NCBI GenBank assembly: GCA_023512255.1
Contig: JAILZY010000125.1
Location: 1-8,786 of the forward strand
Source of the DNA: a bacterium
GTDB lineage: Bacteria > SZUA-182 > DTGQ01
DNA length: 8,786 bases
Reading direction: 5' to 3'
Shown here: positions 233 through 8,786 of the stretch, piece by piece
Position numbering within the stretch: position 1 is the first letter of the stretch
Layout of the letters: each line of letters begins with the position of its first letter
Notes under the pieces: model-generated
What the model saw: only the letters and a program-made list of their open reading frames with translations
What the model was told of the DNA's origin: nothing
The model's database searches: none
Made by a program: the position numbers and the translations under genes

Positions 233-293
233 AGTCCAAAGCATGAGAACATGAGTCCAAAGCATGAGAGTGAGAGCATGAGTCCAAAGTATG
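233..293 (+). repeat. Three degenerate direct repeats ending in the cas6 start codon
   Basis: AGTCCAAAGCATGAGA occurs exactly at 233-248 and again at 254-269. A third, changed copy at 281-293 reads AGTCCAAAGTATG. The spacings between copies are 21 and 27 bases. The ATG at 291-293 in the third copy is the apparent cas6 start, so the repeat reaches into the gene. An unclear AT-rich stretch at about 195-208 (ATGATATGATATAA) could supply a -10 box for cas6, but no convincing -35 box accompanies it. The rest of 123-290 shows nothing else I can support. Confidence 0.8.
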
Positions 294-1256
294 CTATACA
301 GCCGCCTAAGCTTTACTACTGAACTTAGCGCCAGCGCCTCTTTGCCCCTATTTAAGGGCTCGACCTTTCGCGGGGCCTTTGGCAATGCCTTAAAGCGGGT
401 GGTGGCCTGTGCGCTTGAGAGGCAGGAGTGTCAAAGCTGTTTGCTGGCAAGCCGGTGCGTATATCCCTTTTTTTTCGAAAGAAAGGCCGCGTGCGCAAAG
501 AAGGGGCTCCGTCTTCCCTCACCGCCTCATCCCTTTGTCATTGAGCCGCCGCTGACTACCGAGGTGAATTTTAACCCAGGTGATAGCTTTGACTTCAACC
601 TCATCCTCTTTGGCCGGGCCAATGACTATCTTCCCTACTGCATCTATGCCTTTGACCAGATGGGCCGGGTGGGCATTGGAAAGCGGATCAAGGGAGTGAG
701 GGCTGGATTTGTGCTCAAAACCGTCTCATCCGAAAGTGGCAAGATTATCTACTCCAGCCAGGATCAGAGACTGATCAGAGAGGATGAGTTTGCAGTGCAG
801 CTTAAGCTTCAAAAACCGGAGAAAGAAAAGGTGAGTCGTCTGACTGTTTATCTCAAGACACCGCTTCGGATAAAGCATGGAAACCGCCTATTGAGGAGTG
901 ATCTACCTTTCCACGTCCTGATCAGGGCAGCTCTTCGCCGAATATCCTCACTCTTTGCCTGCTACGGACAGGGGGATGAGGATAAGCTTGCCCTAGACTA
1001 TCGGGGCTTGGTGGCCCGGGCCCAGGATCGGAGCATTAGGGTCGAGGAGTCTGATCTTTGCTGGTTTGACTGGTCGCGCTACTCAAGCCGTCAGGATACA
1101 AAAATGCTGATGGGCGGTATGCTAGGAAGCATCAGCTACTGGAGCGAGCGGGGCAATCTGGGGGAATTTCTGGCCCTACTTCAGCTAGGGGAGAAGGTCC
1201 ATCTTGGCAAGCAAAGCACCTTCGGGCTGGGGCAAATTATGGTGGAGGCAGAATAA
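291..1256 (+). CDS. cas6: CRISPR-associated endoribonuclease Cas6
   Basis: This 321-residue RAMP-fold protein should cut the CRISPR precursor transcript within its repeats to give crRNAs for the Csm complex. The N-terminal part carries the family segment LPLFKGSTFRGAFGNALKR (18-36). A cysteine cluster follows, C47-x2-C50-x5-C56, ending in VYPFFFE, as in the larger Cas6 proteins of the precrRNA-processing RAMP family. PPHPFVIEPP (78-87) and GRANDYLPYCIYAFDQMG (108-125) are also typical. The C-terminal half has RYSSRQ (263-268), a GGMLGSISY segment and the glycine-rich RNA-binding loop GKQSTFGLGQI (306-316). Which residue is catalytic is not clear; H304 next to the loop is one candidate. The length is normal and the frame is intact. 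There is no strong Shine-Dalgarno sequence at the ATG, which sits in an upstream repeat copy. The gene looks richer in G and C than the csm genes downstream. Confidence 0.92.
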   Translation: MLYSRLSFTTELSASASLPLFKGSTFRGAFGNALKRVVACALERQECQSCLLASRCVYPFFFERKAACAKKGLRLPSPPHPFVIEPPLTTEVNFNPGDSFDFNLILFGRANDYLPYCIYAFDQMGRVGIGKRIKGVRAGFVLKTVSSESGKIIYSSQDQRLIREDEFAVQLKLQKPEKEKVSRLTVYLKTPLRIKHGNRLLRSDLPFHVLIRAALRRISSLFACYGQGDEDKLALDYRGLVARAQDRSIRVEESDLCWFDWSRYSSRQDTKMLMGGMLGSISYWSERGNLGEFLALLQLGEKVHLGKQSTFGLGQIMVEAE

Positions 1257-1283
1257 GGCAAATTGTAGAATAAAGGCAAATTG
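1250..1283 (+). repeat. Two-copy tandem repeat across the cas6 stop codon
   Basis: AGAATAAGGCAAATTG (1250-1265) is repeated at 1267-1283 as AGAATAAAGGCAAATTG, a period of 17 bases with one inserted A. The first copy contains the cas6 stop codon, so the duplication appears to start at the end of the gene and to have lengthened the gap that follows. Confidence 0.75.
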
Positions 1284-1326
1284 CGCTGAAAGTCAGGCTG
1301 AAGTCAAAATGAGTCAGAATGGCTGA

Positions 1327-1356
1327 AGTCAGAATTAGGGTAGTCAGAATTAGGGT
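1327..1356 (+). repeat. Perfect 15-base tandem repeat ahead of the NE0113-family gene
   Basis: AGTCAGAATTAGGGT is present twice head to tail (1327-1341 and 1342-1356), followed by the beginning of a third copy (AGTC, 1357-1360). Related fragments (AGTCAGGCTGA, GAGTCAGAATGGCTGA) lie just upstream at 1291-1326. Because 15 is a multiple of three, an upstream ATG at 1319 stays in frame with the gene. Starting there would add a low-complexity leader (MAEVRIRVVRIRVVG). The family start is better placed at 1364. Confidence 0.85.
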
Positions 1357-1363
1357 AGTCGGG

Positions 1364-2604
1364 ATGAAGCGAAATATTCTTTTGGCTGTCTGTGGGCTAA
1401 GTCCCCAGGTGATTACTGAGGCTCTCTATGCTCTGCACCAGGAGGGTGGCCGGGTCGATGCCATTCATGTGATTACCACCAGGGACGGGAAGGAGATGAT
1501 TTGCTCCTCTCTTCTCTCTCCCCTTGATGGGCAGTATTACCAATACCTGCGGGATTACCACCAAGCCCCTAGCAGATAGAGTTTGGCCCGAATAATATTC
1601 ATGTAATTACTGATGATAGTGGCCGACAGATAGAGGATATCCGAGACGAGGATGATAATGAGCAGTTGCTCAAGCTGTGTCTTGATCTTACCTTTAAACT
1701 GACCGCTGATTCGCAAACCGCTGTTTTTTTTCTGGTTGCTGGTGGCCGCAAAACTATGAGCTCTTGTCTGACTCTGGCTGCCCAGTTGTATGGCCGACCG
1801 CAGGATAGAATTTATCATGTCCTGGTATCGCCAGAATTTGAGAATAACCGAAACTTTTTCTACCCTCCGCCAGTGCCGATCGAGATTGAATTGAGGGATC
1901 AAAAGGGAGATCGGTATATCAAGAAAACCAGCTATGCCCAGATTAGCCTTATCTGCGTGCCCTTTGTCTCAATCCGCGATCGCCTAGCTGACAGGTGGCT
2001 GAACGAGCCTCAGGATCCGGCAACCTTGATGCTCTCGCTCATTCGAGATGAACACCCCACCTTGACCATAGATTTGTCTGAGCAAAAGCTGATCTACAAG
2101 AGAATAGAACTTGACCTGCCACCCTCACTCTTAGCCCTCTACACCTTCTTTGCTCAGCAGAAAAAGAATTGCCCGCTAAAGAAAGCCTCATGCCGCGACT
2201 GCCAGAAGTGCTTTTTGACCATCCAGGAGATTTTTAAGGCTCAGGATAAGCTAGACAAACTATACCGCCGCATCAAAAGCAAGTCTTATTCACCGCCGCC
2301 TCTCACTCATTCGCCTCTTCCCAGCAATATAAGCAATCTCGATGCTGAAACGCACCATCATGATGATTGGCATCATCTCGATTGGCATCATCGCTCAGCA
2401 GCAGCTACGCCCCCCAGCAGCATAAACAGTCTCGATGCTGAAACCTTCAATCAGTACAAGGCTAAGATCAGAAAGAAAATCATCCAGCAGTTTGGGGGAT
2501 CTATTCTGCGCCTTCTTGAGATCTCATCCGTTGGCCATAAGCCAGACACCAGATACGGCCTCCTCCTGGATAAGAGATGGATACGCATACTGCCGGATGA
2601 ATAA
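1364..2604 (+). pseudogene. NE0113-family CRISPR ring nuclease / CARF protein, with a frame break near 1574
   Basis: Reading starts at MKRNILLAVCGLSPQVITEAL and stops at TAG 1577-1579 after 71 codons. The next part of the same protein continues in another frame (IEFGPNNIHVITDDSGRQIE from 1576). Adding one base near 1574-1576 would join them into about 413 residues. Both halves match the family known as Cas_NE0113, which some databases name a Csm6-type ring nuclease. The matches are GLSPQVITE at the N-terminus, AGGRKTM (about 126-132 of the joined protein), GRPQDRIYHVLVSPEFENN, and a cysteine set C-x6-C-x2-C-x2-C (about 270-283). The end TRYGLLLDKRWIRIL is also family-like. Proteins with this fold bind, and in ring nucleases cut, cyclic oligoadenylate. 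I see no HEPN R-x4-6-H motif. A His- and Pro-rich linker (about 309-363) is unusual. No ATG, GTG or TTG gives a good restart just after the stop; the first in-frame one is TTG 1666. It is either a damaged gene or an assembly error. Confidence 0.8.
2320..2444 (+). repeat. Nested in-frame duplications encoding a His-rich linker
   Basis: Two 32-base copies (2320-2351 and 2413-2444) lie 93 bases apart. Each encodes a version of the segment ISNLDAET or INSLDAET. Between them GATTGGCATCATC occurs at 2365-2377 and 2380-2392, a 15-base period that yields DWHHL followed by DWHHR. Both periods are multiples of three, so the frame is kept. The result is a linker with nine histidines in a short stretch, inside the NE0113-family gene between its cysteine cluster and its C-terminal segment. 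Confidence 0.85.
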
Positions 2605-2692
2605 GGAGTGGACGCCATCAAACTACACCTTCAGACTGATACACCCCCCTTGGATAAGCAGGCTGATACAATCACTTGGTGGTTCTTTCGCT

Positions 2693-2715
2693 AAGTGTGC
2701 GTAACACAAGTGTGC
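2693..2715 (+). repeat. AAGTGTGC direct repeat, 15-base period
   Basis: AAGTGTGC occurs at 2693-2700 and 2708-2715. The seven bases between are GTAACAC, so GTGT at 2695 and ACAC further on could also form a very small hairpin. It is short and its meaning is uncertain. Confidence 0.5.
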
Positions 2716-2735
2716 AGCGGATCAATTACGCTATC

Positions 2736-2790
2736 AATTTGTAGGGGCGGGGATAAGTAATTTGTAGGGGTGGATAAGCTAATTGTAAGC
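2736..2790 (+). repeat. Tandem repeat of an AATTTGTAGGGG unit
   Basis: A 23-base unit starting AATTTGTAGGGG and ending GGATAAGT (2736-2758) is followed directly by a 22-base version (2759-2780). A partial third copy, AATTGTAAGC, follows (2781-2790). The two full copies differ by one base gained or lost and a few substitutions. Confidence 0.8.
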
Positions 2791-2820
2791 GCGGCCATCA
2801 GGTCCGCCACAGCTTTGGGC

Positions 2821-2868
2821 ACTTTATTAGAGATGTGTCCGCTTGCAGCTTGCGACTTTATTAGCGAT
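2821..2868 (+). repeat. ACTTTATTAG direct repeat, 34-base period
   Basis: ACTTTATTAGAGAT (2821-2834) recurs as ACTTTATTAGCGAT (2855-2868). Between them, GCTTGCAGCTTGCG contains a further small repeat of GCTTGC. The surrounding block from about 2790 looks richer in G and C than the flanks. Confidence 0.65.
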
Positions 2869-2876
2869 AGAGCCAC

Positions 2877-2905
2877 TAAAAAATTAGGGGATAAAAAATT
2901 AGGGG
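2877..2905 (+). repeat. Perfect tandem repeat TAAAAAATTAGGGG
   Basis: TAAAAAATTAGGGG is present at 2877-2890 and 2892-2905, a 15-base period with a single A between copies. It is the cleanest repeat in the gap before cas10. Confidence 0.85.
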
Positions 2906-2973
2906 AAAAGTGACCTTGAGCAGCATTTGACGAAAGCAGCCAAGGAGTAAGGCTTGAGGATCAATTTACTACT

Positions 2974-2989
2974 TTGTCAACGTTGCCAA
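2974..2989. promoter_or_regulatory. Imperfect 16-base palindrome, possible operator upstream of cas10
   Basis: TTGTCAACGTTGCCAA reads almost the same on both strands; only one base pair (positions 4 and 13) breaks the symmetry. It lies 82 bases before the cas10 start and 25 bases before a possible -10 box. This size and symmetry suit a dimeric repressor or activator site, but no regulator gene is in the window and the role is inferred from shape and position alone. Confidence 0.35.
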
Positions 2990-3014
2990 GGGTGAAAATC
3001 TCAGGCTGAAGGAG

Positions 3015-3020
3015 TATACT
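3015..3020 (+). promoter_or_regulatory. Possible -10 box for the csm operon
   Basis: TATACT differs from the TATAAT consensus at one base and lies 51 bases before the cas10 ATG. At the ideal distance upstream there is no good -35 box (the bases there are GTGAAA), and TTGCCA at 2983-2988 is too far away. If used, the promoter may need an activator, for which the nearby palindrome is one candidate. Confidence 0.25.
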
Positions 3021-3057
3021 TTTAGGCAGCTGGAGAGTAGGGGACCTAGAGAGAAAT

Positions 3058-3063
3058 AAGGAG
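3058..3063 (+). promoter_or_regulatory. Ribosome binding site of cas10
   Basis: AAGGAG lies eight bases before the ATG at 3072 and fixes that start for cas10. Confidence 0.8.
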
Positions 3064-3071
3064 AAAAAAAT

Positions 3072-5753
3072 ATGAATGATAACATCTACAAAATCGCTAT
3101 TGCCGGGTTCATGCACGACATAGGTAAATTCGCTGAGCGGGCGAACATGCCTATCAACAAAGAGTTTGAGATCGGCAATGCCGATCTGTATCAACCTCAT
3201 AGAAACAATCGGTACACTCACCGACATGCCCTGTATACCGCTGCCTTTATTGACTCTTTCGAGAAAATTCTACCCAAGGAGTTTAACCGGGCAAACTGGG
3301 GGTTTGAGGATTCTTTCATCAACATTGCTGCTGGACATCATATGCCTGAAACTCCTCTGCAATGGATAATTGCTATGGCCGATAGGGTCAGTAGCGGTTT
3401 TGAGCGGGATGAGTTTGAGGACTATAACCAGGAAATAGGGGTTCGAGACTACAAAAAGACTCGACTTATCCCTATCTTTGAGGGGATAGACCCGGATAGG
3501 GGTGGAAAAGCTGATAGCCTAGACTCTTACCATTTTAGATATCCCTTAAAAGAGCTTTCTCCAAATCCAGAGAACTTATTTCCAAAAAATGAAGATGCCC
3601 TAAGATCGCTAGACAATGAGCAAGCATCGAAAGAATATAATGAGTTGTTCAATAAGTTTATAGCTGAACTGGAGAAATTGCTCCACCGCTACCAAAGCAT
3701 ACCTCTTTGGTTGGAGCACTTTGATAGCCTATTTATGATCTTTGCCTCCTACATACCCGCAGCTACGGTCGGAAAGGTTATCCCTAATGTCTCTCTTTAT
3801 GATCATTCTAAGGCCACAGCAGCCTTAGCCGCTGCTCTGTATTTGTATCATTTACAAACCGATAGTATGAAAAAAGAGAAGATTACTGACTACGAAGAGA
3901 AAAAATTTTTGATCGTCTCAGGCGACTTTTACGGCATCCAAAGTTTTATCTTCAGCGCTGGAGGAAGCACAAATAAAGCTGCGGCGCGGCTTTTGCGAGG
4001 CAGATCATTTGCCATATCGCTTATCTCAGAGCTAGCGGCAGATCTAATTTGCCGAGAAATAGGACTGCCTCCCACCTGCTCCATTATTCTGAATGCCGCC
4101 GGCAAATTCACCATTATGGCGCCGAATACGGATAAGGTGCGCAGACAGATTGAGGCGGTTGAAAAGGAAATCAATGACTGGCTAATCAAAAATTTCTATG
4201 GGGAGTCAACCATTGGCCTGGCCTGGATTGAGGCCTCTTGTAGTGATCTTAGCTCAAAACAAATCGAAGGCTTATGGGATTCTCTAGCTAAGGAGCTAGA
4301 AAAGAAAAAGTATAGCAAAATCGATCTCGAAAGATATGGCGGGGCAGTTAAAGACTACCTTGACCAGTTTAACAATGAGCTGAGCAGCAAGCTCTGTCCA
4401 TTTTGCGGCAAGAGGCCATCAGATAAACAGATAGAAAATGATCCCCTGGTGAGAGATGATAACAATAGGTCAGCCTGCAAGATATGCAGAGACCATATTT
4501 ATCTAGGCAAAAAGCTGGTTAAATCCCCAAAGATGGCTATTGTCAGCCATGATGCGGAAATTTATGGTGATAAGCTCAGTGAGCCAATCTTTGGTAAGTA
4601 TCAGGTATCTTTCGACGTTGAGGGAAAGCTTAATGAGCTGGCCAAAAAAGGGAAGCTTTTAAAATATTGGGACCTTTCTATCTCCAAGGATGGCAAAATT
4701 ACCAAAGAGATAGCCGCCAAATTTATCAATGGCTATGTGCCGGTCTGGTCAGAAGAGGATCAAACAGAAGAAACTTTAATTCGCATTCTTCATGGTCGTA
4801 AGTCAGAAAAGACAAAAAATGAATTATTTGATGCTATTAAGGAAGGGGCGATAAAAGAGTTTCTCTATTTAGCCAAGATGTCCATAAATGTAAAAGTTAA
4901 CTATAAAGAGAAGGGAGAAACCAAAACGTGCGGGATAGAGGCCCTAGGGGTCCTGAAGGCAGATGTAGATAATTTAGGGCTTATCTTTACCTGCGGGCTT
5001 AAAAATAACAGCATCTCCCATCTAGCTACCCTGAGCAGGCAAATGAATAACTACTTTGCTATATACTTGCCTTACTTATTAAGCAAAGAAGAAAAGTTTA
5101 GGGATATTTACACAATTTTTGGCGGCGGAGATGACCTTTTCCTAATCGGCCCTTGGAACAGAATCATAGATTTTACCCAATTCCTTAATCAATCATTCAG
5201 GCAATATGTTTGCCAAAATAAGCATATTACCATCTCAGCCGGGCTGAGTATCCACAAGCCATCTGATCCTGTTCCGCTGCTTGCCGAAACGGCCGAGGAT
5301 GCCTTGAAAAAGGCAAAACATAATGGCAGAGATTCAATTACTCTCTTTGATGAGACGGTAAAATGGGAATTATTTGAGAAATTAAATAGCGAAGTTAAAG
5401 AGAAGATAGAAAGCTGGCTGGATAAATCCTACATTAATAATGCCATGCTCTTTAGGCTTAATCTACTCTCAGAAATGGCTAAACAGGAGAAAGAGCTGAT
5501 AAATGGAGATAAAAAACAGGCAAAGGAAGTAGCCAATAGAGGGGTTGCCCTTGAAGACTGCGAATGCCTGAAGTGGCACGCTATGTTCAAATACAACCTG
5601 GTGAGAAATATTGGCAAGAAATTACAAGAAAGTGCCAGAAATGAGGCTATTTCCAAAGTGGATGAGGCCGCCCTCTGGCTAGATGAGTATGGCGGAGCGA
5701 TGAAGATTCCGCTCTGGCAGGTTATCTACAACCAAAGGAGGTTAAAGCCATGA
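3072..5753 (+). CDS. cas10: Type III-A CRISPR-associated protein Cas10/Csm1
   Basis: At 893 residues this is the large subunit of the Csm complex. It cuts single-stranded DNA through its HD domain and makes cyclic oligoadenylate through its Palm domain when target RNA is bound. The N-terminal HD domain has H15-D16 in FMHDIGKF, GHH at 88-90 and D103 in AMADRVSSGFER. The first, degenerate Palm domain begins near 277 with SGDFYGIQSFIFSAG and continues through LLRGRSFAI and AAGKFTIMAPN. A zinc-binding set follows: C442, C445, C469 and C472. The second Palm carries LKADVDNLGLIF (628-639) and the cyclase motif GGDD (685-688). A helical C-terminal domain runs from about 760. All key residues are present, so both activities should be intact. 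The start is set by AAGGAG eight bases upstream. It opens the csm operon; the csm2 ATG lies 103 bases after its stop. Confidence 0.96.
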   Translation: MNDNIYKIAIAGFMHDIGKFAERANMPINKEFEIGNADLYQPHRNNRYTHRHALYTAAFIDSFEKILPKEFNRANWGFEDSFINIAAGHHMPETPLQWIIAMADRVSSGFERDEFEDYNQEIGVRDYKKTRLIPIFEGIDPDRGGKADSLDSYHFRYPLKELSPNPENLFPKNEDALRSLDNEQASKEYNELFNKFIAELEKLLHRYQSIPLWLEHFDSLFMIFASYIPAATVGKVIPNVSLYDHSKATAALAAALYLYHLQTDSMKKEKITDYEEKKFLIVSGDFYGIQSFIFSAGGSTNKAAARLLRGRSFAISLISELAADLICREIGLPPTCSIILNAAGKFTIMAPNTDKVRRQIEAVEKEINDWLIKNFYGESTIGLAWIEASCSDLSSKQIEGLWDSLAKELEKKKYSKIDLERYGGAVKDYLDQFNNELSSKLCPFCGKRPSDKQIENDPLVRDDNNRSACKICRDHIYLGKKLVKSPKMAIVSHDAEIYGDKLSEPIFGKYQVSFDVEGKLNELAKKGKLLKYWDLSISKDGKITKEIAAKFINGYVPVWSEEDQTEETLIRILHGRKSEKTKNELFDAIKEGAIKEFLYLAKMSINVKVNYKEKGETKTCGIEALGVLKADVDNLGLIFTCGLKNNSISHLATLSRQMNNYFAIYLPYLLSKEEKFRDIYTIFGGGDDLFLIGPWNRIIDFTQFLNQSFRQYVCQNKHITISAGLSIHKPSDPVPLLAETAEDALKKAKHNGRDSITLFDETVKWELFEKLNSEVKEKIESWLDKSYINNAMLFRLNLLSEMAKQEKELINGDKKQAKEVANRGVALEDCECLKWHAMFKYNLVRNIGKKLQESARNEAISKVDEAALWLDEYGGAMKIPLWQVIYNQRRLKP

Positions 5754-5772
5754 GACCCAGGCCACAATCATA
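5749..5772 (+). other. Seven-codon mini-ORF with a strong ribosome binding site, possible relic of the csm2 start
   Basis: AAAGGAGG lies at 5734-5741 and is followed by ATG at 5749, which overlaps the cas10 stop as ATGA. The frame encodes MRPRPQS and stops at TAG 5770-5772. Overlap of this kind normally couples the next gene of an operon (csm3 uses it), yet csm2 starts only at 5857. I infer a former csm2 start cut off by later sequence expansion, or a small translational leader. There is no evidence that the peptide has a role. Confidence 0.4.
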
Positions 5773-5786
5773 GGTAATAAACCTCA

Positions 5787-5834
5787 AAAGTAAAATCAAC
5801 TTCACAAAGTAAAATCAATCCACAAAAAGTAAAG
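5787..5834 (+). repeat. Tandem repeat AAAGTAAAATCAA between cas10 and csm2
   Basis: AAAGTAAAATCAA occurs at 5787-5799 and 5806-5818, and a partial third copy (AAAGTAAAG) lies at 5826-5834. The period is 19-20 bases. The A-rich block fills most of the gap between the two genes, which interrupts an otherwise tightly packed operon. Confidence 0.8.
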
Positions 5835-5856
5835 TGTAAGGAGGTAAGATAAGGCT

Positions 5857-6318
5857 ATGAATATGGAATCTAAGCCTTCGCAAAAATTGGCGCTAAAGCT
5901 TTGGCAAGATAAGACCAATAAAGAGATTGATCCAGATCTATTTTCAGCTCGAGCGGACGAGTTAGCCAGGGTAATATACCGTGAGGGAAAGGATCAGGAA
6001 AAGAAGCAATTAAACAAGCCTACTCAGATCAGAAAATTCTACGATGAGGTACTGCGGTTTGATAGCCTCATAAAGACAAAGACAAACTTTAGCGAACTAC
6101 TCCCGTATTTGAAGATGCTAAATGCCAAAGCAGCCTACGCTTTGGGCCGAAACCTAATTTCACAAGGATTCAAGGAGTTTATTTCAACTTCACTGGATCA
6201 GATTAAGGATAAGGAGGATTTTAATGTTTTTGTCTCTCTGTTTGAAGCCTTTATGGGCTACTATAAGTTCTATTATGAAAAAGAAGGAGAGCAGATTGCT
6301 CAAGGAGGTAGAATATGA
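5857..6318 (+). CDS. csm2: Type III-A CRISPR complex small subunit Csm2 (Cas11)
   Basis: This 153-residue, mainly helical protein is the small subunit that lines the inside of the Csm complex along the crRNA and target duplex. Family features visible are KPTQIRKFYDEVLRFDSLI (54-72), LLPYLKMLNAKAAYALGR, and the end segment IKDKEDFNVFVSLFEAFMGYYKFY. No catalytic residues are expected. The start at 5857 has TAAGGAGGT twelve bases upstream (5837-5845), slightly far; ATG 5863 in the same frame is a possible alternative. The first 40 or so residues, before the conserved part, are charged and variable. The stop overlaps the csm3 start as ATGA, so the two are probably translationally coupled. Its presence is what makes this a III-A rather than a III-B locus. 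Confidence 0.92.
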   Translation: MNMESKPSQKLALKLWQDKTNKEIDPDLFSARADELARVIYREGKDQEKKQLNKPTQIRKFYDEVLRFDSLIKTKTNFSELLPYLKMLNAKAAYALGRNLISQGFKEFISTSLDQIKDKEDFNVFVSLFEAFMGYYKFYYEKEGEQIAQGGRI

Positions 6319-7058
6319 GACTCATCGAGATTAAAAAACTTGAGGGGACAATTGTGTTAAAAAGCGGACTTCATATTGGCTCAGGCAATATGGAAATGCA
6401 TATTGGCGGAACAGACATGCCGGTAATCAAGCATCCCCATACCCTCGAACCCTATATCCCTGGCTCTTCACTTAAAGGAAAGGTCCGCTCTCTTCTTGAA
6501 ATGGAAAGCGGCCTGATGATCTACACCAATGGGGATGTGGTCTCAGGGAAGACCTTGAAGGAAGTAGCTAATGATCCTAAACTAAAGGACAAGGGTGAGG
6601 CTATACTGAAACTACTAAAGGACAAGGGTGAGGCTATACTGAAAATTTTTGGCTCAAGCGGTGCAGATAAGGAAGATGAAACAGGGTTTGGGCCAACTAG
6701 GGTCTCTTTTGCGGACTGCTATCTGGCAGATGATTGGAGGGAGAAGGCTAAAGAGAATCGCTGGCTTCTGACTGAAGAAAAATCTGAAAATATTATTAAT
6801 AGGATCAAGGGTGTGGCCGAGCATCCGCGCTTTATTGAGCGGGTGCCAGAGGGAGCCAAATTTTCTTTCTTAATCACCTTTAAGGTGCTAGAAGATAGCG
6901 ATAATAAGCTTTTTGATAGCGTGCTTTTGAAAGGGCTTAAGCTTCTTGAGATGGATACCCTTGGTGGAAACGGCAGCCGGGGCTATGGAAGGATTAAGTT
7001 TGAGTTTAAAGACCAAGAAGTAGAAAAAAAATTTGCGGCCCTGAATCCCTTTTCATGA
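6315..7058 (+). CDS. csm3: Type III-A CRISPR RAMP protein Csm3 (Cas7), target RNA nuclease
   Basis: This 247-residue backbone subunit binds the crRNA in repeated copies and cuts the target RNA at six-base intervals. The RAMP fold is shown by LKSGLHIGSGN near the N-terminus, IPGSSLKGKVRSLLE (48-62), FGSSG (112-116) and the glycine-rich loop GGNGSRGYGRI (217-227). D34 in IGGTDMPVIK is at the position of the catalytic aspartate known in other Csm3 proteins, so target cutting should work. An 11-residue tandem duplication (90-100 and 101-111, LKDKGEAILK in both) lies in the region before FGSSG and lengthens the protein. AAGGAGG at 6302-6308 is six bases before the start, which overlaps the csm2 stop. 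Confidence 0.95.
   Translation: MRLIEIKKLEGTIVLKSGLHIGSGNMEMHIGGTDMPVIKHPHTLEPYIPGSSLKGKVRSLLEMESGLMIYTNGDVVSGKTLKEVANDPKLKDKGEAILKLLKDKGEAILKIFGSSGADKEDETGFGPTRVSFADCYLADDWREKAKENRWLLTEEKSENIINRIKGVAEHPRFIERVPEGAKFSFLITFKVLEDSDNKLFDSVLLKGLKLLEMDTLGGNGSRGYGRIKFEFKDQEVEKKFAALNPFS
6581..6646 (+). repeat. 33-base in-frame tandem duplication inside csm3
   Basis: Bases 6581-6613 and 6614-6646 are head-to-tail copies that are identical over their first 31 bases. The period is 33 bases, or eleven codons. Such near identity at the DNA level, including third codon positions, points to a recent event. Confidence 0.93.
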
Positions 7059-8177: not shown

Positions 8178-8786
8178 ATGGAAAAACCACTTAAAATAAG
8201 GATGCATATCATATCACCGGTACATATTGGCTGTGGCGATGCATATGAGCCAACAAGCTTTGTCATTGATGAGAAAAGCGGGAAGCTGATTGAATTCGAT
8301 CCCCTAGATTTTATCAGCTCTCTCTCACCACATGATAAGGAGCAATTTGCCAGCATCTGCATGGAGGGAACGCTTTCCTCGATTATCAAAATCTACCGAT
8401 TTATTTCAGACAGGAAGATCCAGATTATTAGTAAGGGTCGGCAGATCGAAATAGCCGCTGATCTGAAAGAACATTATAATAAAGTCAAGAAGCTGCCACT
8501 TCAGGATGAGCAAAAAATCAAGCAAGAGTTAAACAAATTTGCCATCAGCCGGACAGCTTATAATCCTCATACCAATCTGCCCTATATTCCAGGCACTTCG
8601 GTAAAAGGCGCCTTAAGAACAGCCTACCTGAGCAAGCTGGCCAAAGATAAGGGGATAAAAGAGTGGTGGACAACACAATTGGCCAAAAAAGTCAAAGATA
8701 AAGAGCAGGCCCAGATGTTCCCCATATTTAAAATTAGGAGAAGTAGATAAGCTGCAGGGGAAGGGTATTGAGGTAAAAGACAATAG
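8178..8786 (+). CDS. csm5: Type III-A CRISPR RAMP protein Csm5 (Cas7-like), frame break near 8730, cut by window end
   Basis: Csm5 caps the 3' end of the crRNA in the Csm complex. I start it at ATG 8178, nine bases after AAGGAG (8163-8168); the TTG at 8160 lies ahead of that site and is a poor choice. The N-terminus MEKPLKIRMHIISPVHIGCG and the segment NLPYIPGTSVKGALRTAYLS (133-152) are typical. The frame ends at TAA 8748-8750 after 190 codons, about half the usual length, with the odd tail FPIFKIRRSR. From 8731 another frame is open to the window end and reads KLGEVDKLQGKGIEVKDN, which is a more natural continuation. Removing one A from the AAAA at 8730-8733 joins the two. The coordinates given cover the inferred gene, which continues past the window. 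Confidence 0.88.

Follow-up and report, generated by a model that had tools for sequence, protein, structure and literature searches.

In E. coli, the topA R168C mutator generates head-to-tail duplications of 2-19 bp that are independent of existing repeats (PMC6954433). Bachar et al. compared the hotspots of these duplications with known TopA motifs and found none, and they called the origin of tandem repeats from non-repeated DNA unknown (PMC6954433). Tandem duplications that are initiated de novo by a topoisomerase have also been described for trapped Top2 in yeast and human cells, where they measure 2-4 bp, start from a double-strand break and need NHEJ together with Pol4 (PMC11477040), and in plants paired nicks on opposite strands lead to tandem duplication through end joining. 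A C at position -4 is the cleavage preference of topoisomerase I (type IA) and of reverse gyrase (PMC7587558). Our literature searches on short tandem duplications in bacterial gene gaps returned nothing direct. Here we describe a natural bacterial genome that has been widely lengthened by short head-to-tail copies of 8-22 letters. These copies resemble the products of the E. coli R168C mutant in being short (mostly 8-22 bp), head-to-tail and repeat-independent; they differ in that the E. coli strain carries a laboratory point mutation whereas TopA is unchanged here, and in that they carry a C(-4) boundary signature, which was not reported for that mutant. The presence of C at -4 at both duplication boundaries and its linkage on the same strand are new here.

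The window analyzed is the whole of an 8,786-nucleotide contig (C144) belonging to a genome of 3.83 Mb in 172 contigs that is 97% complete. Since the closest match to its MutS protein was that of Bacterium UASB270 with 52%, which we take to be a candidate-phylum KSB3 bacterium, the lineage is poorly sampled. The window holds a type III-A CRISPR locus comprising cas6, a broken NE0113-family gene, cas10, csm2, csm3 and more RAMP-like genes. The repeats named in a preliminary description of this DNA were all found in the window where it had placed them, and the in-gene periods of 15, 33 and 93 that it had noted were seen at 2356-2392, 6581-6646 and 2320-2453, respectively. Tandem Repeats Finder (period 8 or more, score 40 or more) detected 8 arrays in the window, versus a mean of 0.26 and a maximum of 3 in 200 Markov-2 shuffles. 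The features are as follows.

233..296, before cas6: three copies of AGTCCAAAGCATGAGA at 233, 254 and 281 (spacing 21 and 27), the copy at 281 being degenerate.
1250..1321, after cas6: successive decayed tandem duplications with units of 17-18 bp, AGAATAA(A)GGCAAATTG (spanning 1250-1283), ~11 bp, GCTGAAAGTCAG, and 10 bp, AGTCAAAATG.
1327..1360: perfect tandem duplication of a 15-bp unit, AGTCAGAATTAGGGT, and 4 bases of a third copy.
2320..2453, plus strand, NE0113-family gene: in-gene repeat of period 93 with 80% identity over 41 bases.
2356-2392, NE0113-family gene: 15-bp repeat inside the period-93 repeat.
2676..2880, plus strand: copy of a MITE-like dispersed repeat, lengthened by internal duplications.
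2736..2784: 21-23 bp tandem duplication inside the MITE copy, the 21-bp version being common to a MITE subfamily.
2821..2868: 34-bp spaced duplication (ACTTTATTAGAGAT / ACTTTATTAGCGAT) inside the MITE copy.
2877..2906, 3′ edge of the MITE: perfect 15-bp tandem duplication TAAAAAATTAGGGGA, with C at -4 of its left boundary and G at +4 of its right boundary.
5776..5833, between cas10 and csm2: 18-19 bp repeats AAAAGTAAAATCAACTTCAC, including copies of AAAGTAAAATCAA at 5787 and 5806.
6581..6646, plus strand, csm3: in-frame 33-bp tandem duplication with one mismatch.

The csm3 duplication encodes LLKDKGEAILK twice, and the best solved Csm3 is shorter at that place. The NE0113-family CRISPR gene (1319-2604) is split by a frameshift near 1570-1580, one half aligning with profile positions 1-48 and the other, in a different frame, with 82-206. 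Separately, the last 75 bases of the window (8712-8786) are also found, 91-100% identical and with different flanks, at the termini of 14 or more contigs of the sample; they are the end of a multicopy insertion element (starting TGTTCCCCAT) that interrupts csm5 and breaks contigs.

Repeat density was determined in a sample of 1.04 Mb taken as 20-kb stretches (27% of the genome), in which genes were called crudely as long non-overlapping open frames and arrays were identified by Tandem Repeats Finder. The results showed 2.60 arrays per kb of gap. The corresponding figure was 0.90 for a same-genus genome, 0.61 for a same-family genome and 0.36 for 80 loci pooled from other bacteria, some of them situated close to a single conserved gene, mutS; another same-family genome, G003, gave 1.58 per kb, from only 8.8 kb of gaps. 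The coding sequence of this genome held 0.26 arrays per kb, and Markov-3 randomization of an earlier 393-kb sample gave ~0.04 per kb. The duplication process is therefore genome-wide, and since density was high everywhere in the genome, the ordinary density that the preliminary description had named as evidence against such a process was not encountered. Its statement that every gap of 80 bases or more contains repeats was borne out in the window (4/4 gaps) but not across the genome, where an array at score 30 or more was present in 64% of such gaps; the share was 35% for the same-genus genome, 21-25% for other bacteria and 13% for shuffles. Array density did not vary with gap type (0.96-1.26 per kb), and gap orientation revealed no promoter or supercoiling dependence of the arrays.

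The units had also been ascribed to a process and not to a mobile repeat family, a view that is upheld by the genome-wide count (only 69 of 415 gap arrays fall within dispersed repeats) and fails at 2636-2905, which belongs to a MITE-like copy. The gap at 2605-3071 is largely one copy of this dispersed element, in which tandem duplications were acquired later. The element has a consensus of ~121 bp with inverted ends TAGTGGTTCTTTCGCTAA / TTAGCGAAAGGACCACTA and is present in 81 copies in 1.04 Mb of genome plus the window. Thus, it resembles MITEs in being short, in its many dispersed copies and in its terminal inverted repeats; it differs from them in that neither an autonomous transposase-bearing copy nor a clear target duplication was found in 1.04 Mb, the flanks reading CT/AG or TT/AG, an ambiguous TA. 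No copies were found in the same-genus genome or other class relatives, and a DNA pattern scan of the genome's contigs for the MITE gave no matches. Alignment of 61 near-full copies to their consensus, from which insertions were read, revealed private tandem duplications of adjoining sequence (with lengths including 7, 8, 12 and 22 bp) and a subfamily characterized by one 21-bp duplication. Because MITE copies carry such private duplications, the repeats are gained copies and not relics of an ancestral array. With the MITE-like family and other dispersed repeats being abundant, the tandem copies might themselves be target-site duplications or footprints of mobile elements; we regard this as most improbable, as the unit length is spread over 8-22 bp and not fixed, the copies abut without an insert, and so few of the gap arrays lie in dispersed repeats. 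A second dispersed family (TATATCAGACACCATAAACCCTATATCAGAACAACCATAAACCCT), which contains a duplication of ~22 bp within its own sequence, turns up repeatedly in the genome (in the sampled stretches at L012:7181-7224, L015:9515-9555, L023:12519-12563 and others). Two long young duplications with periods of 166 and 154 (L025:2661-2990 and L025:11613-11919, 97-98% identical) fall outside the 8-22 bp class, in apparently disrupted coding sequence.

At every length between 8 and 14 bp, perfect gap duplications numbered ~8-12 per 100 kb, and they became rarer up to 22 bp; lengths under ~8 bp are indistinguishable from chance. The 158 kb of gaps contained no perfect duplication of 23-40 bp, and imperfect ones of 24-36 bp exist and are rare. 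The duplicated units in gaps were AT-rich (GC 0.31 vs 0.40 in the flanks). The matching run extended beyond two copies by 0, 1, 2 and 3 bases in 83, 32, 8 and 4 of 131 cases, where by our own arithmetic chance would give roughly 0.54, 0.28, 0.11 and 0.04. Junction microhomology therefore equals chance and the duplications are independent of pre-existing repeats, the 4-base partial copy at 1327..1360 being an exception. These data bear on the slippage offered as an explanation in the preliminary description, here taken as replication slippage or an unusual polymerase, perhaps combined with weak mismatch repair. Slippage usually yields tandem arrays, and a few arrays with long overlap do exist (3/131 with an excess of 10 or more), but the perfect duplications lack junction microhomology and thus give slippage no support; MutS and MutL are present, which gives no support to missing mismatch repair, for which the preliminary description had suggested looking, and slippage yields no C(-4) motif of the kind reported below, so that we consider this explanation very unlikely. 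The expectation that duplications inside genes keep the reading frame was confirmed, given that 53 of 71 perfect coding duplications were multiples of three, a bias that is favored by open frames and is also present in other bacteria. Duplications thus persist in gaps, MITE copies included, and in genes mostly those in multiples of three survive.

In a duplication of the form X-U-U-Y, the breakpoints are unambiguous when the matching run is exactly two copies, and the boundaries can then be read base by base. In the discovery set, consisting of the first 97 perfect gap duplications, C was found at left -4 with a frequency of 0.44 and G at right +4 with 0.31, versus 0.19 (outer p=1.7e-9). Across 213 unambiguous duplications, the frequency of C at -4 was 0.357 for the outer and 0.300 for the inner boundaries versus about 0.2, and at other offsets (-2 to -8) C reached at most 0.237 and 0.192, respectively. 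The motif was found post hoc, and it recurred in two sets not used for its discovery, which come from the same genome: 51 coding duplications, with p=3.9e-3 for the outer and 2.3e-2 for the inner boundary, and 65 imperfect duplications, with p=1.7e-3 and 1.5e-4, respectively. It held in both halves of the sample and in a declustered set, and in duplications with 1-3 ambiguous bases the peak was blurred but still lay around -4. The C at this position is favored and not obligatory, the fitted frequency on the inferred strand being 0.45-0.50, and 42 of the 213 duplications had no C at -4 at any of the four positions. The motif itself is a direct measurement. Other bacteria showed the signal weakly: 74 perfect duplications gave p=0.0016, 38 imperfect ones gave no signal, and the pooled value was 0.019, which is no more than a hint of generality. 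The paired C's are not accounted for by a decayed third copy, because X and the end of the unit lack general similarity. UvrABC, for which the damaged base lies four bases from the 3′ incision, would give a peak at 12-13 nt and no C at the second boundary, and neither was seen.

The C residues at the two boundaries were linked. C at left -4 went with C at right -4 (OR 2.27, p=0.007), and co-occurrence on the same strand was 59 versus 46 (permutation p=0.0024), compared with 37 versus 46 expected for opposite strands. A same-strand model outperformed independence by 6.6 log units and opposite-strand mixtures by 14.7 (two parameters each). Both the perfect gap set and the coding set showed the association clearly; in the imperfect set the linkage was absent for one of the two pairs, that of left -4 with right -4 (OR 1.08). 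There is thus moderate evidence, from one genome, that both C's tend to sit on the same strand. A strand bias of the motif within genes was considered and rejected (sense 44, antisense 56). The enrichment at the inner boundary and the pairing of left -4 with right -4 argue against cuts on opposite strands, where the inner position would stay at background. Staggered nicks on opposite strands, with the 5′ overhangs filled in and the ends joined bluntly, would leave no microhomology and short units, as observed here, and duplication by fill-in is known for yeast Top2 at 2-4 bp (PMC11477040). This route nevertheless appears unlikely to us: inner C(-4) is present where it predicts none, the opposite-strand co-occurrence and the model fit given above go against it, and Ku, which we sought as a test of the end joining invoked in the preliminary description, was found neither in this genome (97% complete) nor in the eight class relatives searched. 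The signature of NHEJ fill-in, breaks on opposite strands, was likewise not found. The duplications described here would share with those of trapped Top2 a de novo origin initiated by a topoisomerase, but they reach ~22 bp, carry a same-strand signature and occur where Ku was not found; with the paired nicks of plants they would share an origin from nicks, the opposite-strand geometry fitting worse here.

Only one type IA topoisomerase, TopA, was found in the genome, and we infer that it is the enzyme behind the motif. By our own reading of the alignment, its R147, R151 and Y155 match R169, R173 and Y177 of E. coli, and the residues contacting the C appear to be conserved. We consider it somewhat probable that short tandem duplications, mostly of 8-22 bp, arise de novo where TopA would cut one strand at 5′-CNNN^. 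We propose that TopA would hold the 5′ end of this cut on its tyrosine while a polymerase would extend the free 3′ end by 8-22 nt, displacing the held strand; TopA would reseal once the new 3′ end again puts a C in its -4 pocket, and the resealed strand would carry the segment twice, so that replication would fix the duplication. The observations behind this proposal are the genome-wide excess, the size range, the absence of microhomology, the C at -4 at both boundaries and the same-strand tendency; the extension and resealing steps are conjectural. Such cutting, extension and resealing by TopA would account for the geometry of the strands, for junctions without microhomology and for the lack of Ku. 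Strand exchange between two molecules by TopA may be at work instead and would leave the same marks.

The excess of duplications in this genome is a separate matter from how they form. No R168C-like or other known mutator change was seen in its TopA, in which the equivalents of E. coli R168, R169, R173 and Y177 are intact and only 478S, 518R and 638D are private to this genome; a mutator substitution in TopA was therefore rejected as the cause. Given that the TopA of the same-genus genome is near-identical (87%) and that genome has ~1/3 of the repeat density, the sequence of TopA does not explain the excess, and an altered topoisomerase I was not found. The position of E. coli TopA R35, which when changed to P gives a deletion mutator, is a lysine here and in most class relatives compared. 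Loss of the PF02739 5′-3′ exonuclease domain family (PolA type) and loss of RNase HII were also considered, and both are present. Candidate reasons for the excess are more cleavage by TopA, a change in supercoiling, a slower rate of repeat loss and weak selection. Alternatively, the process may be slow and universal, with this genome keeping its duplications longer through weak selection or a weak deletion bias in long gaps. The weak C(-4) signal in other bacteria, the ordinary TopA and a median gap of 210 bases (134-158 in the pooled other bacteria) are consistent with longer retention, but many copies are perfect and hence young (0.82 perfect duplications per kb of gap, versus 0.20 in the same-genus genome), and G002, a member of the family whose gaps are longer (median 307), holds fewer arrays. 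We think longer retention rather unlikely; because it concerns the excess and not the mechanism, it can coexist with duplication by TopA.

The hundreds of events in a natural genome yielded a boundary signature that a small laboratory set did not give, and this signature points to a candidate enzyme and a strand geometry, from which sharp predictions follow for the topA mutant data already published. The boundary preference suggests that topoisomerase I, an enzyme that untwists DNA, can create repeats where none existed. That TopA-dependent cutting, extension and resealing might produce new short tandem repeats across bacteria in general, and be unusually active, or its products unusually well preserved, in this lineage, is a tentative extension that we consider possible though somewhat doubtful. 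Duplication by TopA would also explain the growth of gene gaps and the in-frame insertions in proteins in such lineages.
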